Assembly: GCA_907163375.1 (NCBI GenBank)
Contig: CAJQUW010015601.1
Location: 161,001 to 225,000 of the forward strand
Length of the DNA: 64,000 bases
Direction: 5' to 3'
Source of the DNA: Prostheceraeus crozeri
Lineage: Eukaryota; Platyhelminthes; Polycladida; Euryleptidae
Every line of letters starts with the position of its first letter. Position 1 is the first letter of the stretch. The notes below the pieces were generated by a model. That model made no database searches. It had not been told where the DNA came from and worked only from the letters and a program-made list of their open reading frames with translations. The translations under genes and the position numbers were made by a program. This document shows, in pieces, positions 4,696-48,139 of this stretch.

Positions 4696-4701
4696 ACTCC
4701 C

Positions 4702-4877
4702 GTTCGAGAGGTATAAACTTTTACGCTACAATAGAGAAGTTTAATTTTTTTTATCATTTTCATTATTAATCTTATTAATCTTATTAATCTTATTATTAGA
4801 AACAAAAAATAAAAAAAAATAAACTTAAATTAAAATTTTATTTTTATTTTTTTGTTTCTAAAAACACTAATTCAATA
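4702..4877. other. AT-rich spacer with inverted T/A runs
   Basis: The region contains short ttattaatc repeats (4768-4797) and A/T runs just upstream of the ATPase start. No gene is supported. An antisense frame here is a low-complexity shadow. Confidence 0.4.
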
Positions 4878-22411: not shown

Positions 22412-23056
22412 AGTAGTAAGCAAAACTCCACCACTGGACCGCGCAAGATGGCCGCCGTCGCTGACGTCCCCCCCTCTGGAACGACAGAGTGTCGTGGTCG
22501 GCCGCCGTGGTGCTTCGAGTCTGACTCCCCCCCTCTGGAACGACAGATTGTCGTAGTCGACTTGGGCGACCGCCAGGTTTTGTCTTGAGGCTATAGTGTG
22601 TGATGTTTTTCGTGCAATCTGCTGAATGTTGGGTTGAAAATGGGCTGTTTCGAGTGGAAGCAGTGCTCGGATGTGAAAACGGAGGCCAGATTCGGATTCA
22701 GCGTGAAATTCTGCATCGGTATGGTGAGTTTCAAGTCAATCGGAGAGAAAAAGTTTCGCTGACGTCCCCCCCCTCGGGAGAGCTAGCTTCGATCTTGGCT
22801 TCTAGTGGACGGATTTTGTCGTGCAATAGCTCGTTTGAAAGCTAAGAGTGAGACAAATTCAGTGAAAGAAACGGCTTGTTGATATCTGTCTTCGTTTAGA
22901 TGTGAGACGCCATTTAAGATTTTAGGTCGGAGCTCACCTGAAAAAATCCTAAGTGTCAGAGTGACTTTGTATGGGTAAAATTTTGAAAATTTTCCAAAGT
23001 GTGGCATTTCGACCTGGCACCCTCACCAAAACATTTTTCATCAAATTTCACTGACC
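22412..23056 (+). repeat. Left terminal inverted repeat of element 2
   Basis: It matches the reverse complement of 47494-48139 with only scattered differences by eye, then the two ends diverge in their repeat composition. It contains two CTCTGGAACGACAGA.TGTCGT sub-repeats after poly-C tracts. Confidence 0.9.
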
Positions 23057-23640
23057 CCCCCCCCCCGACAGCGATCTTCTAACTTTGGTTCTAGTGGACG
23101 GATTTTGTCTTACAGCTACTCGTTTGAAAGAGGAGAAAAAACTGCTCGACGACATTTTTTGCCGCGAGTCAATCGGACCAGCCGTTCAAAAGTTAGAGCT
23201 GTTACAAGATTTTAGGTCGGAGCTCACCTGAAAAATCCTAAGTGTCAGAGTGACTTTGTATGGGTAAAATTTTGAAAATTTTCCAAAGTGTGGCATTTCG
23301 ACCTGGCACCCTCACCAAAACATTTTTCATCAAATTTCACTGACCCCCCCCCCCCGACAGCGATCTTCTAACTTTGGTTCTAGTGGACGGATTTTGTCTT
23401 ACAGCTACTCGTTTGAAAGAGGAGAAAAAACTGCTCGACGACATTTTTTGCCGCGAGTCAATCGGACCAGCCGTTCAAAAGTTAGAGCTGTTACAAGATT
23501 TTAGGTCGGAGCTCACCTGAAAAAATCCTAAGTGTCAGAGTGACTTTGTATGGGCAAAATTTTGAAAATTTTCCAAAGTGTGGCATTTCGACCTGGGACC
23601 TTCACCAAAACATTTTTCATCAAATTTCACTGACCTCCCC
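22921..23640 (+). repeat. Subterminal 290-bp tandem repeats, left end of element 2
   Basis: The landmark tttaggtcggagctcacctg recurs at 22921, 23211 and 23500. Each unit contains an 11-13 base poly-C run after TTTCACTGA. The third unit switches to a related variant. No gene is supported here. Frames in this stretch are repeat shadows. Confidence 0.92.
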
Positions 23641-24268
23641 CCCTCGGGAGAGCTCGCTTCGATCTTGGCTTCTAGTGGACGGATTTTGTCGTGCCATAGC
23701 TCGTTTGAAAGCTAAGAGTGAGACAAATTCAGTGAAAGAAACGCCTTGTTCATATCTGTCTTCGTTTAGATGTGAGGCGCCATTTAAGATTTTGGGAGAC
23801 TGTCGAAAAACGACAGAGTTAGAATTTTGGACGTTTTGGGCTGTAGCGCCAAAACGAGGCATCGGATGGAAAAACGGAGGCCAGATTCGGATTCAGCGTG
23901 AAATTCTGCATCGGTAGGGTGAATTTGAACGCAATCGGAGAGAAAACGTTTCGCTGACGTCCCCCCCCGGCACCGATCTTCCAACTTTGGTTCTAGAGAT
24001 CGTAGAAAGTCGTGCAATACCTCATTTGAAAGCTAGGAGTGAGACAAATTCAGTGAAAGAAACGGCTTATTCATATCTGTCTTCGTTTAGATGTGAGACG
24101 CCATTTAAGATTTTGGGAGATTGACGAAAAACGACAGAGTTAGAATTTCCCAAGAAACAGCTCCAGCGGGCGAATGAAGGCTTGGATTGGTAAACGGAGG
24201 CCAGATTTGGAATCAGCTTGATGTTATTGTCCAATGAGGATCATTATCCAATGAGAATCAAGCATTTC
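23641..24268. other. Subterminal non-coding region upstream of the first gene
   Basis: The region repeats pieces of the terminal sequence (exchange of gagctcgcttcgatcttggc-type and agatcgtagaaagtcg-type blocks) and leads to the TATA box. No supported gene. Confidence 0.6.
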
Positions 24269-24376: not shown

Positions 24377-25151
24377 ATGGTAAGTCGCTACTTTCCTCCC
24401 TCTCCTCCCTTGAACGTAAACTTAATACAATCTTTTTCATTTTCAGGCATCTACTCCATCTGCTGCACTAGTAGGACAAAATGGCGGTCAAACGTTACAA
24501 GGTTCGCTACGATCAGATCATCTACAACTGAGGCCAGTGGAAGAAACAACCAAGGTACATAATCCTACACCGCTACAGCGTAAATTTAAACAAGTCTTGC
24601 GTTATGACGATCATGGTGTAGTACTCCAAACGGGAATGCTCCCTTCCACGGATGTCAAGATAATGCACAATCAGTATGGGGACTACATACTGATCCCCGT
24701 GAGTCCGTACATTCGCCACCAACTTGATATTATTGAGGAGTACGTGACATTAAATATGGACATTCCTACTCCTCTTGCTCAAGAGTGGAAGGCGAGAGAT
24801 GACAAGGATACTCCCTATAGAAAGATTTGGGATGGTAATCAAATTTGCCTACCGGTATCACATTGGTGCACTTACTATAAGAAGGAGGGAGATCATTCAA
24901 CACCCATCAGATGTGATGAGCTCGGAGAAGGTACTTGGGATATCCTTTTCAAAGGGAATGGGCTATATTATGGTCGGCATAAGGATAATAAAATAGCCTC
25001 TCTCTCCATGCATATGGAATCCATCCTATATATTCCAAAACCATCCAACGTGGACGACATAATTGATCAAATCCTTAACAGCAGTGGTACGAAGCGCAAG
25101 TCGGAGAAGAATGCTGCATCAAAACGCAAATCAAAGAAGAAGAATTACTAG
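24377..25151 (+). CDS. Left-end early protein, spliced; first coding exon is the ATG alone
   Basis: ATG at 24377-24379 is followed directly by GTAAGT. The 67-bp intron 24380-24446 has a polypyrimidine tract and ends tttcag. The second exon (24447-25151) continues in frame to give about 236 residues. The same structure is kept at 61431-61500 in element 3. The protein has a compact middle (YGDYILIPVSPYIRHQLDII, then IWDGNQICLPVSHWCTYY, then GTWDILFKGNGLYYGRHKDN) and ends in a Lys/Arg-rich tail that looks like a nuclear localisation signal. The strand pattern near GTWDILFKGNGLYY could be an OB-fold single-stranded DNA-binding protein, but this is a guess. I do not recognise the family with certainty. 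Confidence 0.7.
24380..24446 (+). other. 67-bp intron directly after the start codon
   Basis: Donor GTAAGT, pyrimidine-rich 3' part (acaatctttttcattttcag) and acceptor AG are canonical. The sequence is identical in length and nearly identical in base in element 3 (61434-61500). Confidence 0.85.
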
Positions 25152-25185
25152 TCCTTTCCTAACTCTACCCTATGACAATTCGCTT

Positions 25186-25312
25186 ATGTGCTTTGAGTGT
25201 CGTAGACGTGGTCTTATTAGATACATTTTTACTTCTTCGTTGCCATCATATCATTTGTGTATTTTGTCGTGAAAAGCATCGATGTAATTCTTCATTTTGT
25301 AATATGTTATAG
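25186..25312 (+). pseudogene. Small Cys/His protein, frameshifted copy (element 2)
   Basis: This is the counterpart of the intact 41-residue frame at 62239-62364. The element 2 copy has one extra T in a T-run near 25226-25230, giving 127 instead of 126 bases, which removes the second half of the Cys/His motif. The region otherwise matches element 3 closely. Confidence 0.6.
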
Positions 25313-25364
25313 AACGTTTCCTTAGATGTGTAAATTTCCGTTTTAGGCTTCTATCATCATTTTT

Positions 25365-25895
25365 ATGGATTGTGAGGGTGAACCTGTACAGGAGATCAGT
25401 GCTATTGCTATGAACAATTGGACATATCAGATTGTCAGTGTCTATCATCAACATGCCAACTGCAATCCCAATGTTGATCAATGGGCGAGAAAACACATTC
25501 ATGGACTTAATCTGAAATATTTGCAAGACTATGGCTTTTCTTGTGAGAGTGCTCTTCTTATTGACTTTAAACGATGGTTAGCTGCTTTCAATGTTATACG
25601 CATCTTTTGTAATAATCCTGGTAAGGAGAGGAAAGTATTTCCCAATCTAATCATTGATGACATTTTGCTCCCACCTTGGGATAGTAGAGTGAATCAACAT
25701 TATCATGAAGTCACGAAACGTTTTAAGGATTTGTGTGTTCCTATTTTGTCTGTTCGTTGTAGTAGCTACGTTCATAACCAATGCTTCTTTCCTCCTTACC
25801 TCAGCACTGCCAAAGTCCTGTATGGTTATCATTGCTCGCTGTATGATAGTTACCAGCTGTATCTATTTTATCTCTTTCAAACCATTGATTTATAA
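25365..25895 (+). CDS. DEDDh-type 3'-5' exonuclease-like protein, 176 aa
   Basis: Exonuclease motif I is FMDCEGEPVQEISAI, with the Asp and Glu of the D-x-E pair at residues 2 and 4. Motif III near the C-terminus is HCSLYDSYQLYLFYL, a good H-x4-D match to DnaQ/ERI-type enzymes (His and Asp near residue 158-163). In between come HIHGLNLKYLQDYG, and at the motif II position FCNNPGKERKVF, where the usual Asp is not obvious. The copy at 62418-62948 is intact and nearly identical. In this copy an ag acceptor lies 18 bp before the ATG, in frame, so the start exon ATG at 24377 could also be spliced onto it. It probably processes DNA ends or RNA. A motif II change may mean altered activity. Confidence 0.72.
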   Translation: MDCEGEPVQEISAIAMNNWTYQIVSVYHQHANCNPNVDQWARKHIHGLNLKYLQDYGFSCESALLIDFKRWLAAFNVIRIFCNNPGKERKVFPNLIIDDILLPPWDSRVNQHYHEVTKRFKDLCVPILSVRCSSYVHNQCFFPPYLSTAKVLYGYHCSLYDSYQLYLFYLFQTIDL

Positions 25896-25982
25896 TGCAT
25901 GCTTGTTACTATTATTCAATAAATGTTACTATGAGAAGAGTTGTTGTTTTCATGCAATGGATGGGTTAGATAAAGGGCGATC

Positions 25983-26393
25983 ATGTCTTTCTCAAACGAC
26001 TGCGGAACATTACATTTTCATAGGCAAAGTTTAAAAGGAGCTGTTGAAGATTATGTGATAAATTTTCATAAAGATGAGACCGACATCGAAGCATTGGTCG
26101 ATGATGCTAGCACTCTATTTCTAGAGTTAATGAATACATTCTCTGATAGCATTGTCATGGCGCGATTAGTTGCGAAAATTAAGTTTAGTCATTTTGGAAA
26201 GGAAGAGGTGGAAAGTCGCTCTTTCAATTTTGCTTCTTATTCAATGGAAGTGGTAGATCACCCCGAAGAATTTTTTAAAAGACATATGATAAAAATTGCT
26301 GAACGTCTTAACGCATTTAACCATCATGGTAGCAGTCTATTGATTGAAGCGATTTCAGATATTCACATTCAACTTTCCATAAAGAAAAATTGA
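25983..26393 (+). CDS. Stand-alone relative of the polymerase N-terminal region, 136 aa
   Basis: The protein contains VAKIKFSHFGKEEVESRSF, MEVVDHPEEFF and LNAFNHHGSSLLIEAISDIH. The same order (strand, R-x-F, VVD, FN...SSL...I) is seen in the minus-strand polymerase remnant at about 41796-41540 (IQFHVPSSSATEVVD, then FNQRDSALIFDGVDSAIFKI). I therefore read it as a separate copy of the domain that precedes the exonuclease domain in Polinton polymerases. Function is unknown: it could compete with or assist terminal-protein priming. Element 3 has an intact copy at 63036-63446 with two or three substitutions. The stop is followed two bases later by the ATG of the RING-like gene. Confidence 0.55.
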   Translation: MSFSNDCGTLHFHRQSLKGAVEDYVINFHKDETDIEALVDDASTLFLELMNTFSDSIVMARLVAKIKFSHFGKEEVESRSFNFASYSMEVVDHPEEFFKRHMIKIAERLNAFNHHGSSLLIEAISDIHIQLSIKKN

Positions 26394-27300: not shown

Positions 27301-27918
27301 ATGGATTTCAGACTTCAATGTGATAAAGTTCTGACTGTATCAGGTCCATCTCATGAAGGTAAAACTGTTTTCACGCTGAATTTATTGGATAAAAGAAGGG
27401 AGTTGTTTAAGGAACCTATCAATCGAGTGATTTGGTGTTATGGTATTTATCAACCGTCGCTGTTTCAGGAATTGCAAAGTCGCAACTTTATTCGACATGA
27501 AGGAATTATTGCAGTAGATAAACTTCAGTCTAATGATGTTGTTGTATTGGATGATTTATTAAAAGAAAGTAAGAATTCCAAAGATGTTATAGATATGTTC
27601 ACTCGTGCAGCACATCATAAAAGGTGTTTTATCATCTATATCACACAAAATTTGTTTCCTGATGGAAAAGAAGCTCGTACACGAAACCTGAATACACACT
27701 ATTATGCTATTTTCAAGAATCCGCGAGATAAAAGTCAATTTGAAATTTTAGCGCGACAAGTTGCACCCAGAGGATCAAAAGCCTTAATTGAAATTTTTCA
27801 AGCAGCTACTGAAAAACCATACGGTTACTTATTCATTGACTTTACGCAAGAGTGTCCGGAAGAATTTAGATTTCGAAGTGATATTTTGAAAACTCCCATG
27901 ATTATCTACAAACTATGA
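27301..27918 (+). CDS. Genome-packaging ATPase (A32-like), 205 aa
   Basis: Walker A is GPSHEGKT (residues 15-22), a variant GxSxxGKT loop typical of Polinton ATPases. Walker B is NDVVVLDDLL (about 80-89), followed by FTRAAHHKRCFIIYITQNLF, which matches the conserved strand after Walker B. The frame is intact and short, as usual for the family. The last codons overlap the ATG of the next gene (ATGA overlap at 27915-27918), which supports co-transcription. It should translocate the element genome into capsids. Confidence 0.92.
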   Translation: MDFRLQCDKVLTVSGPSHEGKTVFTLNLLDKRRELFKEPINRVIWCYGIYQPSLFQELQSRNFIRHEGIIAVDKLQSNDVVVLDDLLKESKNSKDVIDMFTRAAHHKRCFIIYITQNLFPDGKEARTRNLNTHYYAIFKNPRDKSQFEILARQVAPRGSKALIEIFQAATEKPYGYLFIDFTQECPEEFRFRSDILKTPMIIYKL

Positions 27919-28608: not shown

Positions 28609-28824
28609 ATGAAGCAGATGTGTTGCTTGCCATGTAATGAGCCGCCAGAGGTGAATGTCGTTGTCACTTGCACTTGCTGCGCCAGGTCTCACAATGAAAC
28701 CCCTAAGCAATGTGAACACGATCGCAAAACCGTTAAAGTTAAATGCTGCAGTTGTTGTAAATGTAGAAAGGCAAGAAAACAAAAAGATGAGAAGAAGGAA
28801 AATGAGTCAGTCGTCATCGACTGA
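28609..28824 (+). CDS. Cysteine-rich small protein, 71 aa
   Basis: ATG at 28609 begins one base after the previous stop. The protein has many cysteines in CxxC or CC clusters (MCCLPC, TCTCCAR, KCCSCCKC) followed by a highly charged tail RKARKQKDEKKENE. A zinc- or disulphide-rich fold is likely, but I recognise no family. Its 3' end overlaps the start of the integrase in another frame, consistent with compact late genes. Confidence 0.55.
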   Translation: MKQMCCLPCNEPPEVNVVVTCTCCARSHNETPKQCEHDRKTVKVKCCSCCKCRKARKQKDEKKENESVVID

Positions 28825-29788
28825 ACGTTTGAAGTCAATCTATTATGATGTAAAACATCCGGCAGGATTTGCATCTATCAAGAAATTATCAAAAGCGAGT
28901 GGTCTTCCACAATCACAAGTGAAACGATGGTTAAAGGGTCAGGCTACCTATACACTCCACAAACAAGCGAAAAAGAAGTACCGCACCCGCCATTATATTG
29001 TTCATGACATCGATGAACAGTGGCAAGCAGATTTGTGTGATATTGCCTCCATTTCAAAACATAGCTCGGGCAATAATTTTATTTTAACCGTCATTGATAT
29101 TTTCTCGCGTTATGCGTGGGCTCAACCTTTAAAAACTAAAGAAGGGAAAGGAGTAGCAAAAGCATTCCAAACAATTTTTCGAGAAGGTCCCATTCCAAAA
29201 AGAATTCAGAGTGATCCAGGAAAAGAGTTTGAAAATCAGCATGTGAGAAGATTATTTGAGAGGCATGACATTGAGTTGTTTAGTGTAAAGAGTGCTTATA
29301 AAGCTGCACTCGTTGAACGTTTTAATCGCACATTAAAAAATCGCTTGTGGCGACATTTTACTGCCAACTTGACACAAAATTGGACAAAGGTTCTACAAGA
29401 TACACTCCATGCCTACAATCACTCTATCCATCGTTCTATTGGACTCAGACCAGTAGATGTAAATGCTGACAATGTAGATAAAGTGCGCGAATCATTCCAA
29501 CGTAAACGCACTCATGTGAAAAGTGATGTGAAAATTGGTGATAAAGTTCGAAACTCAAAAGTGAAAAGTGTTTTTGCTAAAGGGTACCTTCCGAATTGGA
29601 CAGAGGAGGTATTTACAGTATCAAGGATTAATCAAAAAGACTCTCCGACTACCTACAAGTTGAAAGATTACGATAATGAAGAAATTGAGGGTAGCTTTTA
29701 CCGCGATGAGATTGAGATAGTCACTGAAAGTGAAACATATTTGGTAGAGAAAATCATTCGATGTAAAAAACGGCAAGGTGAAGAATGA
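28802..29788 (+). CDS. Polinton integrase (retroviral-type DDE), chromodomain broken
   Basis: The start is taken at ATG 28802 (28787 is also possible), after the Cys-rich frame. An N-terminal helix-turn-helix-like part with LKSIYYDVKHPAGF and VKRWLKGQATYTLH is followed by the catalytic core: WQADLCDI (first Asp), IQSDPGKEFEN (second Asp) and ALVERFNRTLKNR (Glu). A TIR-binding C-terminal region follows, and a chromodomain begins with ETYLVEKIIRCKK. In-frame TGA codons at 29786 and within the VKWTGYP block (about 29819) interrupt the chromodomain, and the frame then continues to 29875. The enzyme would insert the linear genome and make the 6-bp duplication. The catalytic core is intact, but targeting via the chromodomain would be lost. 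Confidence 0.92.
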   Translation: MSQSSSTERLKSIYYDVKHPAGFASIKKLSKASGLPQSQVKRWLKGQATYTLHKQAKKKYRTRHYIVHDIDEQWQADLCDIASISKHSSGNNFILTVIDIFSRYAWAQPLKTKEGKGVAKAFQTIFREGPIPKRIQSDPGKEFENQHVRRLFERHDIELFSVKSAYKAALVERFNRTLKNRLWRHFTANLTQNWTKVLQDTLHAYNHSIHRSIGLRPVDVNADNVDKVRESFQRKRTHVKSDVKIGDKVRNSKVKSVFAKGYLPNWTEEVFTVSRINQKDSPTTYKLKDYDNEEIEGSFYRDEIEIVTESETYLVEKIIRCKKRQGEE

Positions 29789-30374: not shown

Positions 30375-31651
30375 ATGGAGTGTAAAACTTCCGGTTTTGT
30401 TTGTTTGATCAACAAGCCATACAGACAGATATTCTTAGTTCAAGTATTGTAGATTATCATCCTCGAACAGCTGAGAATGCTGGCCCCATTGAATTTGTTA
30501 TTCCTGGTGGTAGTGATGACTACATAGATTTGAGTTATGCGATGGTTGATTTGAGGTTTAGAATTCAGCAAGCAGATGGAACTGCTATTGACGATATACA
30601 TAAAGTTGGACTGAACAATTTACCATTGACTACATTACTTCGTGATGTTTCTCTAACGATTGGAGAGCAGCAGGTGGAAGGTGGTCAAAGCGATTATCCC
30701 TATAAATCATATTTCAATCATGTATCACAGTTTCATCCAGCAGCACAAAAAAGTCATATGGAAGCCATGGGATGGTACAGAGATGAAGCAGGAAAATTTG
30801 ATGCTGAAACAAACAGTGGCTTTGTAAAGCGATCTGCTATGATTAAAGATAGTAGAGTATGTCAGCTATATGGTCCGCTGAATTTAGACTTCTTTAGACA
30901 GTCAAAGTTTTTACTCTGTAATACCACCATGCGACTCAAGCTGACATTGAATAAGCCTGAATTTGCGCTGAATGCATTTGCTAAAGTTGACAATTTTAGA
31001 ATTCATGTGGAAGATATTGCACTTTACATTCGTGGAGTAGTACCGAATCCAAGTGTCATTAGAGGACATGCTGAAGGTCTTAACCGCCAAAATGCCATTT
31101 ACCCCATTCAGCATACAAAGCTTCTCACCTTTACAATTCCTAAAGATCAAAAGAGTTTCATGAAAGATGGCCTCTTTCCATCGGAAGCACCGAAGCTCCT
31201 CATGGTGGCAATGGTTGAAAATGATGCATTTAATGGTAATATAAAGAAGAATCCTTTCAATTTTAAACACAATCAGTTAAGTGAAATTGCTTTACGTGTA
31301 AATGGTGTGAGTCATCCTGGTCCACCCTACAAACCAGATTTTGCTGCGGATCAATTTATGCGCAGTTATGTTGATTTTATGGATGTCTTTGGCTTTTACA
31401 ATACGGATGACACCAACGGACTGACTATGAAAGAGTTTAGGAGTGGATATACTATTTATGCATTTGATTTGACTGCTGACAGCGATATTAGTGCCCCCTA
31501 TCGTCAACCGAACGTGCCTCATAATATTCGTTTGGATTTGACGTTCAAAAGAACACTACCTGAGACGATCAATGTATTAATTTATGCAGTCTTCGATTCA
31601 AATATTGAAATTACAAAGTATCGTGACGTGATTCTTCAGTATAATCGTTAA
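30375..31651 (+). pseudogene. Major capsid protein (F54H12.2-like family), 5' frameshift
   Basis: The 416-codon frame from 30401 has the family blocks PIEFVIPGGSDDYIDLSYAM, the SDYPYKSYFNH signature, GPLNLDFFRQSKFLL, PKLLMVAMVEND and DLTADSDISAPYRQPNVPHN. Animal proteins annotated F54H12.2-like occupy the Polinton capsid position, and I take this as the double-jelly-roll major capsid protein. That identity is inference from position and family. There is no ATG at the start of the long frame: the good ATG at 30375 is in another frame, so a one-base shift between 30375 and 30401 separates start and body. The stop overlaps the protease start (TAATG at 31649-31653). Confidence 0.75.
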
Positions 31652-32112
31652 TGAGTTGGTTGACTGCTGACGATATTAAGACTAAAGTGCAGCGTAATGC
31701 AGACGAAGCGACGTTGAAAGCTTTCGATAATGTCTATTCACTCGATACCTTACCACCTGCAGTAAATCACTATCCCATCTTTATTGTGCTAAACACTCAT
31801 TCGCAGAATTTAGGCGGTGAGCATTGGAAAGCGATCTTTATTGGAGAAGACCGACGTGGTGAACTATTTTACACTCTTGCTCAACCTCCAAATATACCAA
31901 CACAGCAGTGGTTGAGAAAACATACGCGTCAATATCAGCGAAATGAACGCATACTACAACATCCACTTTCATCAACGTGTGGTGCTTTTGTACTGTACTT
32001 CATCTTAAAACGTTTACATGTATCTCGATTTGTATCTGTTATTCAAAACTTTTCATGTAATCCATCCTCTAATGAAAAAATGATTTGTAAGTTCTATCAT
32101 GATTTGAAATAA
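31651..32112 (+). CDS. Adenain-like cysteine protease (maturation protease), 153 aa
   Basis: The catalytic His is in NLGGEHWKAIFI (about residue 54), a following acidic residue lies in the ERILQ/DRRGELFY segments, and the nucleophile is in LSSTCGAFVLYFI (Cys near residue 110). This is the Ulp1/adenain pattern found in all Polintons. It would cleave capsid precursors. The ATG overlaps the stop of the capsid gene, so the two are probably expressed together. The frame is intact. An AATAAA lies at the stop codon. It is convergent with the TBP-like gene, with 26 bp between stops. Confidence 0.9.
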   Translation: MSWLTADDIKTKVQRNADEATLKAFDNVYSLDTLPPAVNHYPIFIVLNTHSQNLGGEHWKAIFIGEDRRGELFYTLAQPPNIPTQQWLRKHTRQYQRNERILQHPLSSTCGAFVLYFILKRLHVSRFVSVIQNFSCNPSSNEKMICKFYHDLK

Positions 32113-32138: not shown

Positions 32139-32684
32139 TTATTTTACAATCCGCTGGGTGCGTACATACTCGATGAGATAGTCTAGGATCACATTTGCTT
32201 GTACATGAGATTTTAGTCCAGTAATGATCACTTTACTATTATGAAAGATTGCAACATGCACAGGTAACCAACAACTAATGAGAGCTGCAGGAAAAAGTTC
32301 GGGTTCATAACACAAATTGTAACTGCTGGTACGAATCTTCAAAAATGATACACTGTCACTCAATTGAGTAGAGATCACCATATTGTCCACAGTCAGATTC
32401 GACATCACACACCTCTCCCTCTTCCATATCCGACGTAGTAGTCTTTGTAGCTCTAAGTGCATTGACTGCGCCGATGAATGAGAAAGGACGCCGAGAATCT
32501 GTACAGTCCAATTTGGGAAGAGTTGAAGATTCCGTGAATTGTTCATCTTCACCACTAACACTTGAGGTCGGCCCGGGTAATACTTGCTGTTGGGAAGGTG
32601 TTGGTGTAATGTTGTGAGATCGATTTTGGTGTAGAGTCTGAAGCGATGGAGAATGTTGACGATGGTGTAGCGATGGCGCTTCAT
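32139..32684 (-). CDS. TATA-binding-protein (TBP) homologue, 181 aa
   Basis: The protein from ATG 32684 is the length of a TBP core and has its two-repeat layout. Repeat 1 contains KIDLTTL, NSKYYPGRP and LVVKM (compare KLDLKTI, NAEYNPKRF and VIMRI of TBP). Repeat 2 contains LTVDNMV, CYEPELFPAALI, VAIFHNSKVIITGLK (compare QNMV, SYEPELFPGLIY, LIFVSGKVVLTGAK). Of the four Phe residues that kink TATA DNA, three positions are Phe here (LQLFPN, ELFP, AIFHN) and one, in YYPGRP, is Pro. It would bind promoter DNA and recruit RNA polymerase II factors. The frame is open upstream to 32828, but the homology starts at this ATG. It overlaps the tail of the PC4-like gene in another frame by 329 bp. AAATAAAAAA follows the stop. 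Confidence 0.9.
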   Translation of the reverse strand: MKRHRYTIVNILHRFRLYTKIDLTTLHQHLPNSKYYPGRPQVLVVKMNNSRNLQLFPNWTVQILGVLSHSSAQSMHLELQRLLRRIWKRERCVMSNLTVDNMVISTQLSDSVSFLKIRTSSYNLCYEPELFPAALISCWLPVHVAIFHNSKVIITGLKSHVQANVILDYLIEYVRTQRIVK

Positions 32685-33006
32685 GATGAAAGAATGAGTA
32701 AATTGAGCGATGTACCTTCCTTTTATACTTTTCCCAACTACCTTGATGAAATGTGAAGTTAGTATGAAGTTGGGAATGATAGAGTTGAATTCGCCGATTG
32801 TTGACGCGCAGCCAGATGCGATTTCCAATACGTGAATGTCTTTTCATATATAAGTATTTCAAATCCTTCATGATATGATGTAGAGATTGAAAATGACGAT
32901 AAGATAAAGCAAACTCTCTTCTCACATTTCCAGTTGAATCTTTGAAATAGACGTTTCGATCATGATCCGTTTCAATACGTTGTAGGGAATCTAATTTCCA
33001 ACTCAT
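32356..33006 (-). CDS. PC4-like protein with Ser/Pro-rich acidic tail, 216 aa
   Basis: Residues about 5-50 (LDSLQRIETDHDRNVYFKD, then FALSYRHFQSLHHIM) and 55-100 (RIGNRIWLRVNNRRIQLYH, then FTFHQGSWEKYKRKVH) look like two tandem PC4 units. In each, strands with an IG-x2-x-V pattern are followed by a turn and the helix signature of PC4 (ISLNPEQWSQL type). PC4 binds single-stranded and melted promoter DNA and acts as a polymerase II coactivator. The C-terminal 110 residues are Ser/Pro/His-rich and end acidic (DMEEGEVCDVESD). That tail overlaps the TBP-like gene in another frame and could be partly an overprinted extension. It is a paralogue of 33029-33385, and the gap between the two genes is 22 bp. 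Confidence 0.65.
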   Translation of the reverse strand: MSWKLDSLQRIETDHDRNVYFKDSTGNVRREFALSYRHFQSLHHIMKDLKYLYMKRHSRIGNRIWLRVNNRRIQLYHSQLHTNFTFHQGSWEKYKRKVHRSIYSFFHHEAPSLHHRQHSPSLQTLHQNRSHNITPTPSQQQVLPGPTSSVSGEDEQFTESSTLPKLDCTDSRRPFSFIGAVNALRATKTTTSDMEEGEVCDVESDCGQYGDLYSIE

Positions 33007-33028: not shown

Positions 33029-33385
33029 TTAAGATTTGCATAGTAGGGCGATGAACTCACGACGAATAAATGTCATGATGGAGCGATGTATGTATCTTCT
33101 ATACTTCTCCCAATTGTATTTGCGGAAAGAGAAACAGTTTGCGGAATGAGAATGGCAGATTTGAATTTCATTTCTATAATGTTGAAGCCAAACTTGATCA
33201 CCCAAAGAGATGAATCGTAATGTTTCAAAATATTCCAAATCCCTCATGATATCATTGAGGTTGACAAATTGTCGCCATGTTAATGTAATACCTCTTGATG
33301 AATGACCATGAGAATTTTTGAAATGTACGTTTCCATCACGATCAACTCTGATATATTGTAGAGAGTCCAAAATCCAAGTCTTCAT
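33029..33385 (-). CDS. PC4-like protein, short paralogue, 118 aa
   Basis: The start is placed at the second ATG (33385, MKTWILDSLQYI) because it aligns with the start of the paralogue. An ATG four codons upstream (33397) is also in frame. Two PC4-like units are visible: YIRVDRDGNVHFKNSHG then GITLTWRQFVNLNDIM, and FISLGDQVWLQHYRNEIQIC then FSFRKYNWEKYRRYIH. The W/F-centred helix at the end of each unit matches the PC4 helix. No acidic tail is present. It is divergent from the capsid accessory gene at 33421, with about 35 bp between the starts, which suggests a shared promoter region. Confidence 0.65.
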   Translation of the reverse strand: MKTWILDSLQYIRVDRDGNVHFKNSHGHSSRGITLTWRQFVNLNDIMRDLEYFETLRFISLGDQVWLQHYRNEIQICHSHSANCFSFRKYNWEKYRRYIHRSIMTFIRREFIALLCKS

Positions 33386-33420: not shown

Positions 33421-33900
33421 ATGTCGTTTTATCATATTTTGCTTAGCAATGCGGCTACAAAGAGATTTGCTAGTAATCGAGCCGCACTCTTTTCTACTCC
33501 CATTGATAATACACAACAGCTAAATGGAAATTGGGAAGTGGGTGTCACTCAACTTGTTTATAGCAACTGTGTCTATACTTTTGATCATGAGGTGATGACT
33601 ATTAATATGAGACGCACAGCTGCTTATCAATGTGAAAAGGGCTGCCGAGTATACATTCCACAGTGTCCAAAGAAAGATCTCTTATCATGTAAAAAGTTTA
33701 TATATGATTTCTTGAATAAAGCGTGTAAACATATTGTCCAATTTACTCCGCACAATGATGATCATAATTATGTACATCATGTAGTTGAGAAAGATTGGAT
33801 TGTTGGTTTAAGTCCAAGTTTAAGAAATGATTTAGGTTACCTCGCTAGCGCCTTAACAAGCTATGATAATTTTAACGTTAATTACCAGATAAGTGGTCAT
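33421..33900 (+). pseudogene. Capsid accessory protein, 5' part, split by a Penelope-like insertion
   Basis: The ATG at 33421 opens a protein beginning SFYHILLSNAATKRF with the family signature LNGNWEVGVTQLVYSN (compare LEGEWEVGVSSICYDS in the gene at 36770). It runs to about residue 158 and then enters the retroelement inserted near 33,900. The same gene appears to resume at about 35807-36730 behind the insertion. It is a structural-module protein of Polintons, perhaps penton or fibre related. Confidence 0.75.
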
Positions 33901-35587
33901 AAACAGTCTTCAAGTCTTCATGAAAGAAAATAACCTCACAGTGGCCCCGTCAGATAAAACCAATAGATTAATTCTTATTAACAGCGATGATTTGATAGAT
34001 CAAACTGAATCTGTCCTAAATGATGAGACCACATACAGAAAACTTGAAAAATCGAACAACAATAAATTAGAAAAACAAGCTAACATGATTATCAGATCTG
34101 CTTGTAAAAATAATTTCACAAAAAAAGAAGTTGAGCAATTGTTGAGCTGTGGTACCGAAGCAGCATCGTTTAGAACGGTCATAAAAGACCACAAAGAAAT
34201 GTGTGAAAACGGACTTTATCCAGTCCGCCCGATTGCTTCATGTATCAATAACCCTACTCAGAAGATAGATTGGCTTGTGACTAGAATACTAACTCAACTG
34301 ATGGAATTGGTCCCAGCCCATTTAAAAAACACAGAAGATCTGATCTTAAAACTAAAAAACATAGAAAGTAGTTGCAAAACCAATACCATCTTCTTATCCC
34401 TTGATGTTAAAAACTTGTACCCCAGCATCCCGATTGCTGAAGCAATTTCAGAAGTTATAAACTTTACCGCTGAAAATTGGGATAAAATAAATAATTACGG
34501 CCTTGACCTTCAGTCGATAGAAAATATGTTAAAATTTATCTGCTACAATTACGAAATACAGTATAACGGTAATTTCTTCCAACAAATCAAAGGCTGTCCG
34601 ATGGGCACACATTTCAGCCCACCATTTGCGGTTATTTTTATGAATAGCTTAGAAAACAAAGCTCTGAAAAAATTGAAAGACAATCATAATATTTCGCCAG
34701 ACATGTACGCAAGATACATTGATGATATAATAATGGGTCCATTCTCGACCAATGCAGATTTCGATATCATATTAGAAACTTTCAACAGTATAAATAATGA
34801 TATTAACTTCACTATTGAGGTGCCGAACAAAACTCTTAACTTCTTAGATATTAGTATAAGCAATGCTAACAAAAAGATACTTTACTGTTGGTACCAAAAA
34901 GAAATGCACTCGGGAACTTCACTAAGAAAAGATAGTTTTGTCCCTGCTCACATAAAATCCAATTTTGTCACTAGTAGCATTAATAATGTTACTAAAAGAT
35001 GCAACAACGAACATGACTTGAAGAAATCCCTCAATCAGTTGGACATAAAATTAAAAAACAACGGGTTCACCCACAATTTCTCTAGAAAATCTAAGTCTAG
35101 AAATAAAATAGTCTCGCAGAATACTAGTAACTTAAAATTACGTTTCATCAATGATCATACAGACAATAAAATTCGTCACTTAATAAAAAAATACGAATTA
35201 CCCGCGAAGTTGATTAGCACCCCAAATAAATCACTTTATTGTAGTTTAAAAAATAAAAACAAAAAACTAAAACATGAAGATTGTGACATTTGCACTCGGT
35301 TGCCTGCCAAAAACAAATGTACAGACCGTTTCCTAATTTATAAATTCACTTGCAAAATTTGCAATCAAATTTATGTTGGCCAAACCTGCAGACCTTTCAA
35401 ATTCCGCTTCATGGAACATAAACGTGCGATCCAGAAGCAGGACAGGTCTAGTGCTTTAGGTGAACATTCGCAGCATGGCCTGATATCTATTGATGACTAT
35501 GACTTAGACATCCTGGAAAAGTGCAGTGACGCGCTAGACACGAGACTGTCAGAAGCGAGACACATAAAGATGATTTGCCCTCACTGA
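33893..35587 (+). CDS. Reverse transcriptase + GIY-YIG endonuclease of the Penelope-like element
   Basis: The frame has no stop for 564 codons, so the insertion is much younger than the decay of neighbouring Polinton genes or was under recent selection elsewhere. The true start is unknown: the first residues are fused to Polinton sequence, and recognisable element protein starts near NNLTVAPSDKTN. RT and endonuclease core residues are present. The His and Cys pattern around the GIY-YIG module looks complete. Confidence 0.85.
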   Translation: MVINSLQVFMKENNLTVAPSDKTNRLILINSDDLIDQTESVLNDETTYRKLEKSNNNKLEKQANMIIRSACKNNFTKKEVEQLLSCGTEAASFRTVIKDHKEMCENGLYPVRPIASCINNPTQKIDWLVTRILTQLMELVPAHLKNTEDLILKLKNIESSCKTNTIFLSLDVKNLYPSIPIAEAISEVINFTAENWDKINNYGLDLQSIENMLKFICYNYEIQYNGNFFQQIKGCPMGTHFSPPFAVIFMNSLENKALKKLKDNHNISPDMYARYIDDIIMGPFSTNADFDIILETFNSINNDINFTIEVPNKTLNFLDISISNANKKILYCWYQKEMHSGTSLRKDSFVPAHIKSNFVTSSINNVTKRCNNEHDLKKSLNQLDIKLKNNGFTHNFSRKSKSRNKIVSQNTSNLKLRFINDHTDNKIRHLIKKYELPAKLISTPNKSLYCSLKNKNKKLKHEDCDICTRLPAKNKCTDRFLIYKFTCKICNQIYVGQTCRPFKFRFMEHKRAIQKQDRSSALGEHSQHGLISIDDYDLDILEKCSDALDTRLSEARHIKMICPH

Positions 35588-36769: not shown

Positions 36770-38292
36770 ATGGAAAGTGAAAATAAGGACTCGTTTCTAA
36801 TCTACTTGCCCAGTAATGCTTCTATGAATAAATTTCCCAAAAATAAACCATCAGACTATCGAGTAGAATTAAATCGCTCACTACATTTAGAAGGTGAATG
36901 GGAGGTTGGCGTTTCTAGTATTTGCTATGATAGCAATATTCAGAATGCGAATGATTTGGAAGAAATGATATTGACTCCTCGCACCCATGATGGAATAACG
37001 ATGAATAATGCATTCCAGTTCTCATACAATTTAACATCAGATGGAAAGTGGAACTATGAATGGATTCAGATAAAATCAGATTCTTATGAACCATTTGGGA
37101 ATGAGAAAATTATTAAGGCATTCAATAGTGGTAATACTTCCATCATGAAGAATAAGGATCAGAAAGTTTATGAGTTCACCATCTATCATTGGAGTGGGAG
37201 ACAGTTCCTTCGCTTTCATTCTTTTACTAAAGGTCTTACACTGAGGTTGGATAATGAATTCTATCCACATCTTGGTTTTGGTCATGGACTACATCTAACG
37301 TCAATTGCTACTGCAAATGTTAAAAAAGTTTATTCAAATCGAATCAACAAATTTCATTATAGATTTAAAATATTTGATGAAGATGTTGTAGAATGCGAAG
37401 AACGCATCATTGTGAAAAAGCGTGGTGTTCAACCTTTATCACTTATTGAGTTAGAAAAACGATGGGATGAGACTGTGGGTAAGAAGTATGGAGATAAATT
37501 ATGGCGGACAAAAATAAGTTGGTTATTCAGAAATATAATGACAAACTTACAGTTTATTTGTCTCCAACCTTGCGTCATTTTGTAAGACATTATACACCTA
37601 TTATTGGAAGCGGAGTGGTGTATGCTTCTCATGAATATCACACTAAAAAAGCTGATTCAGTTAATGATGAATAGTGGGTGGACATCTATGGTGATCGCAT
37701 CAAGAAAATTTACCAGTCTTATGAAGAATCTAAAGTTGCTATCAATATAATACCGCGTCTATATCATACAGTTGAAAGCTTCATTCATGTAGTAAATCCT
37801 TATATACAACAGAAGTTGAAGCATGTGATGAAAAGTAAATATGATGCAAAGACACACCACATTTCGTTTTCAATTCAAAATCAACGCGTTGTTCTGAAAC
37901 TGGGCGATGACATTCAATGTCAATTGAGTAAAAATTTGAAAAAACTCTTTGGTTTTTCAATGCTACAAACTGTGTTCACTGCTGCGCATACGATTGGTAT
38001 AGAAACACCAATGACACTTGATAAACATGAACAGCACCTTTACATTCAAAGTGATTTGATTCTACCTATTTCTGTTGGTGAGAAAAAAGAATACATTTTA
38101 CGCGATTTCATTCATGATAAAGACGCTTCATATGGAATAGTCGAGAAGATGTTTGAATCTATTTTCTATCATCCCGTCGTCAAACAAACTATACCCTCTA
38201 TTGCTATCAAAATTACCAATGGTTTACAAGAGTGCATCCATGTGAAAGATACTAAATCCCTCGTAACTTTAGTGTTTCGGAAAACAAAGTGA
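36770..38292 (+). pseudogene. Second capsid accessory gene (paralogue), frameshift plus in-frame stop
   Basis: ATG at 36770 begins a protein with FLIYLPSNASMNKFPKN and HLEGEWEVGVSSICYD, intact to about 37490. There the homologous reading continues in another frame (start of MADKNKLVIQKY at 37501), then meets TAG at 37672-37674. After that the frame carries on from 37678 with DIYGDRIKKIYQSYEE, HISFSIQNQRVVLKLGDDIQ, LKKLFGFSMLQTV and a C-terminal IAIKITNGLQECIHV block. The order of blocks equals that of the gene 33421-36730, so the two are tandem paralogues. One frameshift and one stop make it a pseudogene unless programmed frameshifting is used, for which I see no evidence. Confidence 0.78.
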
Positions 38293-38471: not shown

Positions 38472-41400
38472 TTATGTCAATACATCTCCTGAATGTGGTA
38501 GCGTGAGTTTTATTCTTTTGGGTGGAGGTATGTTTGTGTCAGGATGTCCATGTGGAAGAGATGTGTTATGTCCTATCCAACACCTCTTATCATCCCACGC
38601 TGAAAGTACTCGTTTCTTGAACGTGTACGTTTTCACAGTATGAACTTGAGATTTTAAGATTGTCATATTGACAAACGTTATAGTTTTATTTTTATAGGCC
38701 TTCTTATAGGACCGATGTTTCATTTTGTGAACAATGGATTTTGATATACCTTTAGCACTATCTGCACATTCTTTTAATTTCATGGAATACATTTTAGGAC
38801 GGAGGAGAATCATTTCATCTATTTCCTTTCCTGCTGTTTCATCCTTAAAACAACCAAGTTTGGCTTTATTCTGTATGGAATAGAGTGGATGAGTGGGATT
38901 GTAGTTAGATGTGTCGAAATATTTTTCTAATGACTTGCCTACTTCATTAAAATTTAAATCTTTTTGAGTGGTAATTCCTAAAAAGAAACTATCTGTTTCA
39001 CCACCCAGCAAGCGAACCTCTTTTACGAGAGGGCATGGTTTTAATATTTTGTAGAAGAGTTGATACATTTCAAGCTTGGAATAATCTAAAACGGCTTGCC
39101 CAATATCGATGGGTTTGCACAACTCAACTTCTGATTTTATCATTTCAACACCTACAAGATCCTCATCGATGATGTCTCTATCAATGAAAAGAGGTGATGA
39201 GGTCAATTTGTGATATTTTTGTTCATCAACGACTAGTTTGTAGTTCATACGTTTTCTAACATCCTCCATGGTCTTTCCGAAAAGACGGTTATTCTTATAT
39301 TTATAAAAATCCTTTTCAAAATTATTTTGGGCGAGTGCACGTTTTTGACTGTTACTATCTATGTAGGGTTTGAGGAAGGCTTTCTGTCTAAATTTGATAA
39401 TGCGGTGAACTGACTTTAGAAGCATGCCCATTTCTAAATAGAATTTTAGTATGCAGAAGTGTACGAGATAATTTTTCTTATCATATTGGGTGAGTAATAG
39501 TTTGCGGCATGGTTTGTACCTTGGCTGTCCACACTCTGTTAAGTTATTATGAAATTGTGACATGAATGGTGAAAACATATCTTCAGTCACTTCACCAGAT
39601 TCAGGTGCGAGTGGGAAATCAGCAGTTTTATTTTTAATGCTTTTTGGATAAATCAAATCCACTTCAAAATAATATCCCCAATCACCTTCATCTGGAATCT
39701 TCAGTATGTTTGAAGGGTTGGAGTAATACTCAAGCTCATCTTGATTTAACCAACTAAACTCGGAATGAGGTAGTGGTTTAGACAGTGAACTGCCATATAA
39801 ATTATTTTGGTCATAATACTTAAGATGAGTCTGATCATCGCCTAATAATTTTGATCTTAACCTATGTTTATTTACAAATGTGAGACCACCGCGTATTCCG
39901 CGCTCAAATATATTATACATCTCCGGGTCTTGTAAGAGATGGATGGTCTCACCAGTCATTTTAAAGGCTGATTTAAAGGACATGGCTGGTAGACTGACAA
40001 AGTGGACAGGATCTAATTTGTCTTCTTCTAATGCCACTCGTCGAAATTCCTGAAAGACATCAGCCAGCAAAATGACATCTAATTCTAAGTAAGCGATCAT
40101 ATAATCGCCAAACGTTTTACTTTCAAATTTTAACCATGCCTCTTAAGCATGTTCATAATCTTCTACTGGACAATCTTGACCCGTCAAATCGTTTTGGAAT
40201 TTGTCAATGGAAGGAAGGGTTGTTTCATTTAGTTTAGACATTGAGCTAAAATACGCATAAGGAAAGACTCCTTTGCGAGTGATTATTTCATCCGTTAAGT
40301 TTGGATAGTGTTTCTTCAAAGTTTGACTATGGGGAAGAAACTTGAGATTACGAACGAGAGAAGCTAGTGACGCTGACATGAATTGGAATGAATCTAAAAA
40401 TTTTATTTCGAAGAAGACTGTCTTATTTTCTTTAGTTTTATCAACTGGTACTTTTGCTGTCATTGCCATGAATTTTTCTCTCGTTTGTGCTATTACATTA
40501 AACTGCCACGATTTCATCTGGCTCAACCCTCCTTTTATGAGCATATGACTGTCATAGCCCTTAAAGTTATGAAAAATGACGGGTAGTACACGACGTCTCA
40601 ACCTAAGTGAAAAGTTACATTTGGAGCAGAGTGCGTTTCTAAATGTACCAGTGATGTGATCATGATCACGCACTTTCTTAATTTTATCGTCATCAAACGT
40701 TTTATGACATTTAGTACAGGATGTGCAACTTTCAAATTTTTGTTTGTCTTCATCTGACATATGTAGTGATTTACGCTGCAATTGGGAATCATATGATTGT
40801 TGAAATTTAGCAGCTTTATCGAGAAATTCTAGAAATTTTGAAATGCAATCTTCACCTTGCCAAGTATGCATTTTGTTTTGTCTATTCCTAAAGTGGTCAT
40901 GCCATACTTCATAGCAGGATATGGCTGCTGGCTTGTGGATGATATCATCAATGTAGCATTCTATGTCTGCGTAAATGACACGCAGGGGACTTAATTCGTC
41001 ACCATTATCCCTATGTGAAAATATTTTATCTTTGGGCATGCGTTCCATCTGTAATTTACCTCGCTTGCACCATTCATAGTGAGTTTCAAATTTATCTTTA
41101 CTCCAAAAGGAGCGGATGCAGCGGTCGCATACAAAATGTTCACCTCTTTTAGAGTGCCCTAAGTGTGTGTACAAGCGAGAGATTTTGGGAATACCACAGT
41201 AGTGCCATTCCTCGCTATCATCTTGTTTTACTAATAAGAGGTTGACTACACGTTCATAACAAGTTGAACGTGAATTATAGCGGGCACCCTTCAACCCCTT
41301 CTCCCACACGTGAACGACAATTTTAATCTTATTATTTGATTTTCATGTTGTTACTATCACAACCTTCAAAGTCTAGTTCATCCTCCCACTGTCTATAGCT

Positions 41401-42258
41401 ATAGGTGCGATCTTGGTGCGCGTTGATATCATTATAGTGAAGGATGGATAGGACTGCATATTTGAAACACTGTGATTTACAATCGACATTGATGACAGCT
41501 TTCTTATTATACAACGTTTTTGGTAGTTTAAATGTACTTCGAGCTGCATGACTTTCTAATAGGGAAATTTTGAATATGGCTGAGTCCACACCATCAAAAA
41601 TGAGAGCGCTGTCGCGTTGATTGAATTTATCTACATTTGATTTTAAACATTGAATGTGAAAATTTAGCCAAGACTCGCAGTCTACAACTTCGGTTGCGGA
41701 AGAGGAAGGAACATGAAACTGTATTCTCTCCGTCACTTGACCCGTTTGAAAATCTATCTTAATATATTTTAGTTTAAGGTAGATGAGCGCCTTCATTCAA
41801 AAATTGTCTAAATTGTTGAAGAGCGCTTCGATAATGTTAGAATTTTGAAGGAGCCACTCAGGAAAATCTACTATTTGAGTATTGGACTCCATGCAGTAGT
41901 CGCGTACTAAATTATTATGTGAAACATTAATGAGGGAGATGGTAGAGGTACCGTTGGTGTAGTGATCATTTGCATGCGTGTGTTGAAGTCTGTGCGAAGA
42001 TCGCTGAAAGTGACTATCAAAAGAAAGAGGGCACAAATCGCAAGGAAAGGAGATGTCATCGTCAGAATCAACTTCACCTCCGGAGATTGACGCCGCTTTG
42101 CGTTGACACACACGTTGTTTGATGTGTCGAAGGAGACTGTGCTTCCTTGTAAACATATGTCCGCAGTCGGCACATTCCCACTCGTTGCCTTGTCGCGAGA
42201 GTCCTGAGCTGGAACTCACATCACCTGAAAGAGAAATCATTCTATCATCTCTGTTCAA
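38472..42258 (-). pseudogene. Protein-primed DNA polymerase B with N-terminal zinc fingers, three lesions
   Basis: Read from 42258 the gene has two C2H2-like fingers (ECADCGHMFTRKHSLLRHIK; FPCDLCPLSFDSHFQRSSH). Then come the N-terminal domain and a LYTHLGHSKRGEHFVCDRC block, exonuclease I (IYADIECYIDD), a DHDHITG Cys/His insertion, exonuclease II (FHNFKGYDSH), exonuclease III (DVILLADVFQEF), motif A (YYDQNNLYGSSL), motif B (NRLFGKTMEDVRKR) and motif C. Lesions are an in-frame TGA just after the finger segment (41797-41799), a frameshift near 41335, and an in-frame TAA at 40143-40145 before exonuclease III. Motif C reads GETDSFF with Glu where catalytic Asp is normal. The gene spans about 1.26 thousand codons, normal for animal Polintons. 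It is inactive in this copy. Confidence 0.9.
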
Positions 42259-46276: not shown

Positions 46277-47084
46277 GCCTGATTTTATCGTTAACTGTAA
46301 GATAATGAAATTTGTATAAGTTTGGAATCATGTAGTACAGTCATATTCCTAAAGTATTACACTTAGTCAGGAATGAAAGATTTGAGTATAGTGAGTGGCA
46401 CTCGATCCCGTCGACAGCCCGAAGGCCTTGTACTGATCACTAGGGAAGTGAGAGATCTTCCCCGATACCCGCTCTTTACAGCTGAAGACATCATTGTCAC
46501 TGCCCCGAAGTGGTAACAGGAACGCCGAGTCAAAGGTAGTGATCAGTAGCTGGGATCTAACCCCTCAAAGCTGCCTTAGACTTAGTTAAATTTCAAATCT
46601 GATAGCAGATTTGAACTCAGCATACTTAAAAACTTTAGTCCACATGTTAAAACTTTGAAAAAACTGAAAATTAAGAATTTTTTAAAAATTCCGCATTTTA
46701 CTACTCATACTACTTTTAAAAAATTTTATCAGTAGTAAAGACACTATCAAACTCTATCATACAAACTTTGAAGTAAGAAGATAGCTTGCCTACTTCAAAA
46801 GATAGAGTCCTTTGAAACACCCGATATCGGGAGCTCAGAGCGACGACCGTCGCTTACCTCGTCTTTCGATGAAGTGATCAGACTTACGTTGTCGGGGGTT
46901 TATATATGCTCGGAAGAAAACTTAAAATGGCTCTATCTCCGAAAGTATTCATCGTAGCGACATGCGGTTTGTTGCAAACGATTCGTCTCATCATTCTCTA
47001 TCATATGACACCTGAACCATTCTCATATGACCACGGGAAGTTGGTCCGTCAGCACATGTCCATGTAACATGCCACAAGTGAAAA
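46277..47084. other. Right subterminal non-coding region
   Basis: No gene is supported. At 46431-46550 the arms gtactgatcact and agtgatcagta form a wide stem enclosing about 90 bases. The remainder is A/T-rich with short inverted repeats (gatagcagat, aaaaatt). Confidence 0.5.
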
Positions 47085-47493
47085 AATTCCTAAGTGTGAG
47101 AGCTCCAGTGTGGTGAAAATTTTGAAAAATTTAAAACTTCCGAATTTCGACCTGGGACCTTTACCAAAACATTTTTCATCAAATTTCACTGACCTCCCCC
47201 CCTCGTTCAGAGAAATTTGATGAAAAATGTTTTGGTGACGGTCCCAGGTCGAAATGACACACTTTGGAAAATTTTCAAAATTTTACCCATACAAAGCCAC
47301 TCTGACACTTAGGATTTTTTCAGGTGAGCTCCGACCTTAAATCTTAAATGGCGTCTCACAAATAAACGAAGACAGATATGAACAAGACGTTTCTTTCACT
47401 GAATTTGTCTCACTCTTAGCTTTCAAACGAGCTATTGCACGACAAAATCCGTCCACTAGAAGCCAAGATCGAAGCGAGCTCTCCCGAGGGGGG
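47085..47493. repeat. Inverted pieces of the terminal repeat unit
   Basis: A + strand copy of the unit (cgacctgggacctttaccaaaac, 47110-47205) faces a minus-strand copy starting about 47215, making a palindrome around 47210. A further minus-oriented unit follows to 47493. Confidence 0.85.
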
Positions 47494-48139
47494 ATCAGCG
47501 AAATTTGATGAAAAATGTTTTGGTGAAGGTTCCAGGTCGAAATGCCACACTTTGGAAAATTTTCAAAATTTTACCCATACAAAGTCACTCTGACACTTAG
47601 GATTTTTTCAGGTGAGCTCCGACCTTAAATCTTAAATGGCGTCTCACATCTAAACGAAGACAGATATCAACAAGCCGTTTCTTTCACTGAATTTGTCTCA
47701 CTCTTAGCTTTCAAACGAGCTATTGCACGACAAAATCCGTCCACTAGAAGCCAGGATCGAAGCTAGCTCTCCCGAGGGTGGGGGGGACGTCAGCGAAACT
47801 TTTTCTCTCCGATTGACTTGAAACTCACCATACCGATGCAGAATTTCACGCTGAATCCGAATCTGGCCTCCGTTTTCACATCCGAGCACTGCTTCCACTC
47901 GAAACAGCCCATTTTCAACCCAACATTCATCAGATTGCACGAAAAACATCACACACTATAGCCTCAAGACAAAACCTGGCGCTCGCCCAAGTCCACCACG
48001 ACACTCTGTCGTTCCAGAGGGGGGGAGTCAGACCCGAAGCACCACGGCGGCCGACCACGACACTCTGTCGTTCCAGAGGGGGGGCGTCAGCGACGGCGGC
48101 CATCTTGCGCGGTCCAGTGGTGGAGTTTTGCTTACTACT
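47494..48139 (-). repeat. Right terminal inverted repeat of element 2
   Basis: Reverse complement of 22412-23056 with few differences. It ends GGAGTTTTGCTTACTACT directly before the TTCTTT target duplication. Confidence 0.93.

Follow-up and report, generated by a model that had tools for sequence, protein, structure and literature searches.

A TATA-binding protein encoded by a Polinton clade in the genome of the flatworm Prostheceraeus crozeri

A Polinton (i.e., a Maverick/adintovirus-like element) in the genome of the polyclad flatworm Prostheceraeus crozeri encodes its own TATA-binding protein (TBP). The element lies in a 64,000-nucleotide stretch of contig CAJQUW010015601.1 (assembly GCA_907163375.1, positions 161,001 to 225,000; here called the window, to which all coordinates refer), and its TBP gene occupies positions 32139 to 32684 on the minus strand. 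The open reading frame (ORF) begins with an ATG at 32684 and comprises 181 codons and a stop codon in an intact frame. A preliminary description of this DNA had proposed a Polinton-encoded TBP and recommended a profile search, a structure prediction, and a phylogeny including host TBP. The proposal is borne out by homology, fold, element boundaries, and conserved neighboring genes, and we conclude that the ORF is a genuine, selectively maintained TBP of a Polinton clade.

The profile search yielded a significant match to the Pfam TBP family (PF00352; 63.1 bits versus a cut-off of 22.9; E = 2.2e-17) in two stretches of the product. Both TBP repeats had been recognized in the preliminary description, and the motifs that it quoted for each are present in the 181-residue protein. 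Ten NCBIfam TBP models also matched, every one below its own cut-off. The 35 Protein Data Bank (PDB) sequences matched by phmmer were TBPs or TBP fusions, one of them labeled only as an ECU04_1440 protein. The structure model showed a confident, saddle-shaped TBP fold with two repeats, and TBPs in the PDB reached query TM-scores of up to 0.80 with it in a fold search. A chance ORF is ruled out by this model together with 203 relatives detected in a profile search (E ≤ 1e-3) and purifying selection among 11 genomic copies.

A protein search found 46 TBP relatives with 36 to 78% identity. Among the 203 relatives counted in the profile search, 120 were listed; with the window's own protein (P0001), they gave 121 sequences, of which 98 were aligned and 23 (mostly short rows or rows resembling others) were left out by eye. 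Residue positions follow yeast TBP numbering, and we take the roles assigned to them (i.e., DNA-intercalating Phe, DNA contact, TFIIB contact, and TFIIA side) to be those of the yeast protein. As previously noted for the window protein, three of the four intercalating Phe positions hold Phe and the fourth holds Pro in the alignment to yeast TBP. Five residues (N159, V161, P191, F207, and T215) are identical to yeast TBP in all 98 members, F116 is kept in 98 and F190 in 97, and N69 is kept in 90, the other 8 having gaps. The TFIIB-binding stirrup is also kept (E186 in 96, E188 in 98, and L189 in 86 members, with Ile in the other 12); the corresponding residues of P0001 are E127, E129, and L130. 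Repeat 1 differs from yeast TBP in all or most members at V122 (Gln in 98 of 98) and L114 (Gln in 88 of 98).

In a tree of 50 rows, which supplied the recommended comparison with host TBP, the 45 viral and the 5 cellular rows lie on opposite sides of a split with long branches (support, 100/100). The host genome contains a normal TBP exon and a TBP-like-factor exon, the latter being indicative of an animal. The host TBP exon clusters with human and yeast TBP, apart from the viral rows, which argues that the Polinton TBP is no recent capture. A TBP (P0092) and a capsid-like protein (P0123) of the same family have been deposited under "Pseudomonadota bacterium" metagenome-assembled genomes; these are probably eukaryotic DNA binned with bacteria.

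The element and its relatives in the flatworm genome

Self-comparison of the window revealed the terminal inverted repeats of the element at positions 22412 to 23343 (plus strand) and 47207 to 48139 (minus strand; 91% identical to the left one). Both ends read AGTAGTAAG (i.e., they begin with AG), and TTCTTT lies outside each of them as a 6-bp target duplication. Tandem units of approximately 290 bp occur in the terminal regions (22412 to 24148 and 47079 to 47885).

The plus-strand genes to the left of TBP begin with three of unassigned function (starts at 24537, 25365, and 25983; region 24537 to 26393), which have homologues in the third lineage described below. They are followed by a packaging-ATPase-like gene (ATP; 27301 to 27918), which had no direct match in a Pfam scan and was recognized by its similarity (26% identity; E = 1e-6) to an A32-like ATPase at 4878 to 5666, and by a retrovirus-type integrase (INT; 28655 to 29788; Pfam rve, 1.7e-9). 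A conserved capsid-like protein of 416 residues (MCP; 30401 to 31651) has 353 relatives (best, 98%) and matches no Pfam family or PDB entry; the name "F54H12.2-like" for it follows the preliminary description. The adjacent adenovirus-type protease (PRO; 31651 to 32112) is a weak match (Pfam C5, E = 0.046, below the cut-off; PDB S273R, E = 0.065). Beyond TBP, the 5' part of FBR1 (33421 to 33933, plus strand) is interrupted by a retroelement ORF (33893 to 35587, plus strand; Pfam RVT_1, 5.7e-13; weak GIY-YIG, 0.035), which we take to be Penelope-like. The FBR1-like gene FBR2 (36770 to 37585, plus strand) was identified by cross-matches of both queries; FBR1 and FBR2 are closer together (approximately 1 kb) in related copies such as L019 and L021. 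A DNA polymerase B (PolB) region with ORFs in two frames (38472 to 42258, minus strand) gave no match in a direct Pfam scan and was assigned by homology (30% identity; 1e-59) to a PF03175 protein at 107 to 2842. In agreement with the preliminary description of an element without RNA polymerase, none was detected among the ORFs submitted to Pfam, which were a subset of all ORFs.

Two further elements are partly contained in the window. Positions 107 to 6687 belong to a second, AT-rich Polinton with a PF03175 PolB and an A32-like ATPase, in which the five ORFs scanned gave no TBP match. Positions 59688 to 64000 are a second copy of the TBP-bearing element in the same orientation (approximately 97% identical over 3.5 kb), which leaves the window before reaching the TBP position.

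A TBP search of the 2.05-Gb host assembly gave 10,982 first-look candidates, of which the 150 best-scoring matches were considered; 141 of these 150, a set that includes host exons, contain no internal stop. From the stop-free rows of the two commonest frame lengths, we took 20 stretches of up to 9.9 kb, to which five shorter loci (L004 to L008) were added. These copies form three lineages. In lineage 1 (L019 to L028, window-like), all 10 copies carry g27915-INT-g29917-MCP-PRO on one strand and TBP-OVa-OVb on the other, followed by FBR1-FBR2; ATP is also present in 9 of them. The three loci of lineage 2 (L004, L005, and L007) share the order MCP-PRO-TBP-FBR1, with identities of 41 to 43% (TBP), 41 to 60% (MCP pieces), and 38 to 42% (PRO). 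Lineage 3 (L006 and L008 to L018; TBP, 41 to 46%) had no match to MCP, PRO, INT, or ATP at E ≤ 1e-4 in any of its 12 loci, two of which span only 3.2 kb. PolB was present in all five lineage-3 loci checked (as fragments only in L010), and left-end gene homologues were present in four of the five. At a distance of 5.7 kb upstream of the TBP start, one lineage-3 copy has a probable left end (AGTAGTA) beside sequence resembling the window's terminal repeat; the intervening DNA contains no capsid module. The DNA to the right of another copy yielded a left-gene homologue and repeats but nothing else, and no right terminus of lineage 3 was located. Lineage 3 thus has the appearance of a reduced element in which PolB and TBP have been retained, and it hints that both genes can persist in shrinking elements after the capsid genes are gone. 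Loci L009 to L018, L029, and L030 were recorded as reduced Polintons with PolB, left-end genes, and an OVa/TBP pair, in which no capsid, protease, ATPase, or integrase gene was detected.

No relative was confirmed in public viral contigs (with TBP, two TBP alignments, the integrase, and a capsid alignment as queries) or in scans of public genome contigs. When the lengths of 39 TBP contigs (each 3 kb or longer) were compared with those of 92 capsid contigs, 2 of the TBP contigs gave a coincidence (expected mean, 0.29); at least two coincidences arose in 3.1% of jitters. This is suggestive only and is superseded by the gene orders of the genomic copies above.

A second gene overlapping TBP repeat 1

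A feature beyond the preliminary description is a second gene that overlaps TBP repeat 1 in a conserved arrangement. The ORF OVa (216 residues; 32356 to 33006, minus strand) is read in another frame than TBP, and its last approximately 330 nucleotides lie over TBP codons 1 to 110. Its paralogue OVb (33029 to 33385, minus strand) is identical at 47 of 112 residues. OVa has no convincing match in Pfam, PHROG, NCBIfam, or the PDB, and its structure model is poor (pLDDT, 54.8); the idea of a PC4-like coactivator was dropped for lack of Pfam or PDB support and given the poor model. The sole PDB match of OVb below 0.01, an 18-residue stretch of adiponectin (6.5e-4), was taken as chance.

The OVa frame terminates at TBP codon 110 in lineage 1, 103 in lineage 2, and 114 in lineage 3, so that repeat 1 of TBP is dual-coded and the greater part of repeat 2 is single-coded. 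Within 99 codons of the overlap (one copy per lineage), the OVa and TBP frames contain no stops, compared with 7, 11, and 9 stops in the third forward frame of lineages 1, 2, and 3 and 2 to 9 in the antisense frames. All three lineages conserve the OVa tail within the overlap, with the pattern FSF..A...L and a terminal SIE. Among the lineage-2 copies, the OVa frame is open in L005, partly open in L004, and not listed in L007. Of the relatives for which only a protein sequence is available, 37 carry an N-terminal extension of more than 8 residues ahead of the TBP core. In 8 of these 37, the other frame could encode the OVa motif W-x-[KR]-Y-[KR] (background, 11 in 18,518 positions), at an offset from the GRP motif of -51 to -54 in seven and -41 in one (the window's own offset is -54).

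Among the 11 copies of lineage 1, the ratio of nonsynonymous to synonymous substitution rates (dN/dS) was 0.27 in single-coded TBP and 0.18 in OVa before the overlap. It was 0.77 in the overlap in either frame because dS in the TBP frame is only 0.022 there, compared with 0.067 outside, which is the pattern expected of two frames that are both under selection. The overlap also supplies a further reason for the departure of repeat 1 from cellular TBP. With half of a universally conserved protein sharing its DNA with another gene, the arrangement constitutes a natural experiment on the requirements of TBP repeat 1.

Promoter signals and possible functions

The TATA box TATAAAAG lies at positions 32720 to 32727 (minus strand), 43 nucleotides upstream of the TBP ATG and within the OVa coding region. 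It is found 43 to 47 nucleotides before the TBP start in all 11 lineage-1 copies (including L022, whose TBP has no ATG), in all three lineage-2 copies (as TATAAAAAG in L004), and in four of six lineage-3 copies, the other two reading TATAAAG and TATAGAAG. The motif TATAA was absent from positions -25 to -60 of the 20 other gene starts considered. A TATA box upstream of TBP fits a TBP gene driven by host TFIID. The commonest 7-mer between 15 and 70 nucleotides upstream of 18 gene starts was ATGCAAA (5 of 18), a count that was reached by 10 of 2000 random-window sets and by 3 of 2000 shuffles, for gene starts and an interval width chosen by eye after inspection. The corresponding numbers were 56 and 28 of 2000 for its 6-mer and 450 and 175 of 2000 for the best 8-mer. 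Copies of the motif at 26872, 29879, 33041 (minus strand), 33392, and 36730 stand approximately 29 to 47 nucleotides ahead of five lineage-1 gene starts; the motif is no commoner than chance over the whole window (24 versus 24.3 expected). We keep it only as a lead to a candidate promoter motif.

We lean toward an explanation in which the viral TBP directs host polymerase II to the promoters of the element. The TBP gene would be switched on from its own TATA box by host TFIID and polymerase II. The viral TBP would then bind element promoters, mostly TATA-less, through its conserved repeat 2 and altered repeat 1, and its conserved C-terminal stirrup would bring in host TFIIB together with polymerase II. 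Since TBP is retained in a lineage with PolB in which no capsid genes were seen, the targets of TBP would be expected to extend beyond late capsid genes to genes of the replication type. The preliminary description had suggested that TBP perhaps serves a switch from early to late genes; lineage 3 speaks against a role restricted to late capsid genes. A more far-reaching reading, to which we give somewhat less than an even chance, is that this Polinton clade has a private core-promoter system, composed of TBP and its overlapping partner OVa, and that reduced PolB elements keep the system as satellites. Under such a system, repeat 2 and the TFIIB handle would be frozen, the DNA reader of repeat 1 would have been rebuilt, and OVa, with its acidic tail, would be a putative partner.

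A number of observations weigh against the proposed redirection of polymerase II. In repeat 1, F99 is replaced by Pro in 97 of the 98 aligned members (including P0001) and T124 by Leu in 87; the loss of both may leave the protein with weak binding to ordinary TATA boxes. Among the repeat-2 residues, no more than 37 members have Arg at R196, and the position of L205 falls in an alignment gap. The TFIIA-side residue K138 is Glu in 53 members and Lys in 17, and two basic residues on this side are changed in P0001 (K133 to Gln and K138 to Glu). The window copy is damaged (i.e., by the Penelope-like insertion in FBR1, PolB in two frames, and a capsid-like frame shifted near its start relative to P0122), and the copies used for comparison were picked from rows without stops. 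Lineage 3, for which 6 of 10 copies were usable (the other 4 did not have the start pattern searched for), shows weaker constraint (dN/dS, approximately 0.5) and little drop in dS (0.048 in the overlap versus 0.058 outside). Since the TATA box falls within the OVa codons Tyr-Lys-Arg, part of its conservation may reflect selection on the OVa protein. In lineage 3, TATAAAAC also stands 22 nucleotides ahead of the start of one gene that is not TBP. No exact ATGCAAA was found at the lineage-2 and lineage-3 starts tested. As judged from its residues, the Polinton protein is a TBP homologue that would not have the canonical TATA-binding surface.

Two other functions are conceivable for such a protein. 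A TBP by descent may act in replication, bending DNA at the element ends or origin and helping PolB instead of starting transcription; the altered repeat 1 and the position of TBP beside PolB in lineage 3, where capsid, protease, ATPase, and integrase genes were not found, are in line with this idea. However, a pure DNA bender would not need the almost invariant TFIIB stirrup, and we consider this role unlikely. The preserved stirrup, combined with changes to much of the repeat-1 DNA-contact surface, would also suit a decoy role, in which the protein ties up host TFIIB or obstructs the promoters of the host and thereby shuts down host transcription or defence. We regard a decoy as quite unlikely, since the retention of F116, F190, F207, and N69 (the last in all 90 members with a letter there) indicates that DNA contact still seems to be selected.

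The origin of the gene admits two further alternatives. The presence of a normal TBP exon and a TBP-like-factor exon in the host provides a possible source for a recently captured host gene copy, a very improbable origin that is refuted by the fully supported split and long branches between viral and cellular rows. Likewise, the approximately 330 nucleotides shared by the two ORFs might make the TBP frame a by-product of OVa as the sole real gene; the constraint on TBP codons beyond the overlap in lineage 1 refutes this, and the TBP fold and the 203 relatives cannot be incidental, which leaves it a negligible chance.

Relation to known viral TBPs

The element resembles known Polintons/Mavericks and adintoviruses in its integrase, PolB, ATPase-like, protease-like, and capsid-like genes, its inverted repeats, and its 6-bp target duplication. 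The Polinton TBP shares with the cellular TBP core (human, yeast, and archaeal) the two-repeat saddle, most repeat-2 DNA contacts, and the TFIIB stirrup, whereas identity is 18 to 25% and the repeat-1 contact positions are changed family-wide. A viral TBP fold likewise occurs in giant viruses (Nucleocytoviricota), many of which carry their own RNA polymerase. The 50 BFVD matches listed for the structure model (6 to 20% identity; query TM-scores of up to 0.70) include giant-virus, herpesvirus, and poxvirus proteins, several of them named TBP or TFIID; none of the 50 is named as a Polinton protein, many rows being nameless.

According to one article (PMC4893493), the TBP-like proteins of beta- and gammaherpesviruses (i.e., EBV BcRF1, KSHV ORF24, and CMV UL87) bring polymerase II to TATT late promoters. 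The likeness lies in the use of a viral TBP-like factor with host polymerase II, which is a proposal for the Polinton. The herpesvirus protein is only distantly related to TBP and works with five other viral proteins, whereas the Polinton protein is a compact, Pfam-recognized TBP of 181 residues in an integrating element of approximately 26 kb. Compared with the herpesvirus pre-initiation complex, the Polinton offers one motif lead, in lineage 1 only, and OVa as a candidate partner without a known fold. Mirusviruses, which are herpesvirus-like plankton viruses with genomes of up to >430 kb, are comparable by description only; PMC10132985 gives the frequency of their TBP gene cluster as 59% of the genomes, compared with 0% for Nucleocytoviricota.

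Among the titles and abstracts listed for Polintons, Mavericks, adintoviruses, and virophages in a mainly open-access literature, none concerned a Polinton TBP, although an earlier report may exist in subscription papers. Three Polinton/adintovirus articles (PMC11071308, PMC10120064, and PMC11071296) contain no TATA or TBP term, and PMC12220804 contains TATA solely within reference text.

A real, conserved, and virus-specific TBP is present in a Polinton clade, and its function can be proposed from the evidence above. Viral TBPs were already known from giant viruses, mirusviruses, and herpesviruses; here, one belongs to an integrating element of intermediate size, among whose Pfam-scanned ORFs no RNA polymerase was detected. 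Under the more far-reaching reading given above, host polymerase II would be redirected to promoters ignored by host TBP, and reduced elements with PolB and without detected capsid genes would behave as satellites of full viruses. For the control of Polinton transcription, the element supplies a concrete factor together with a candidate partner, and it raises a question about promoters that can be tested.
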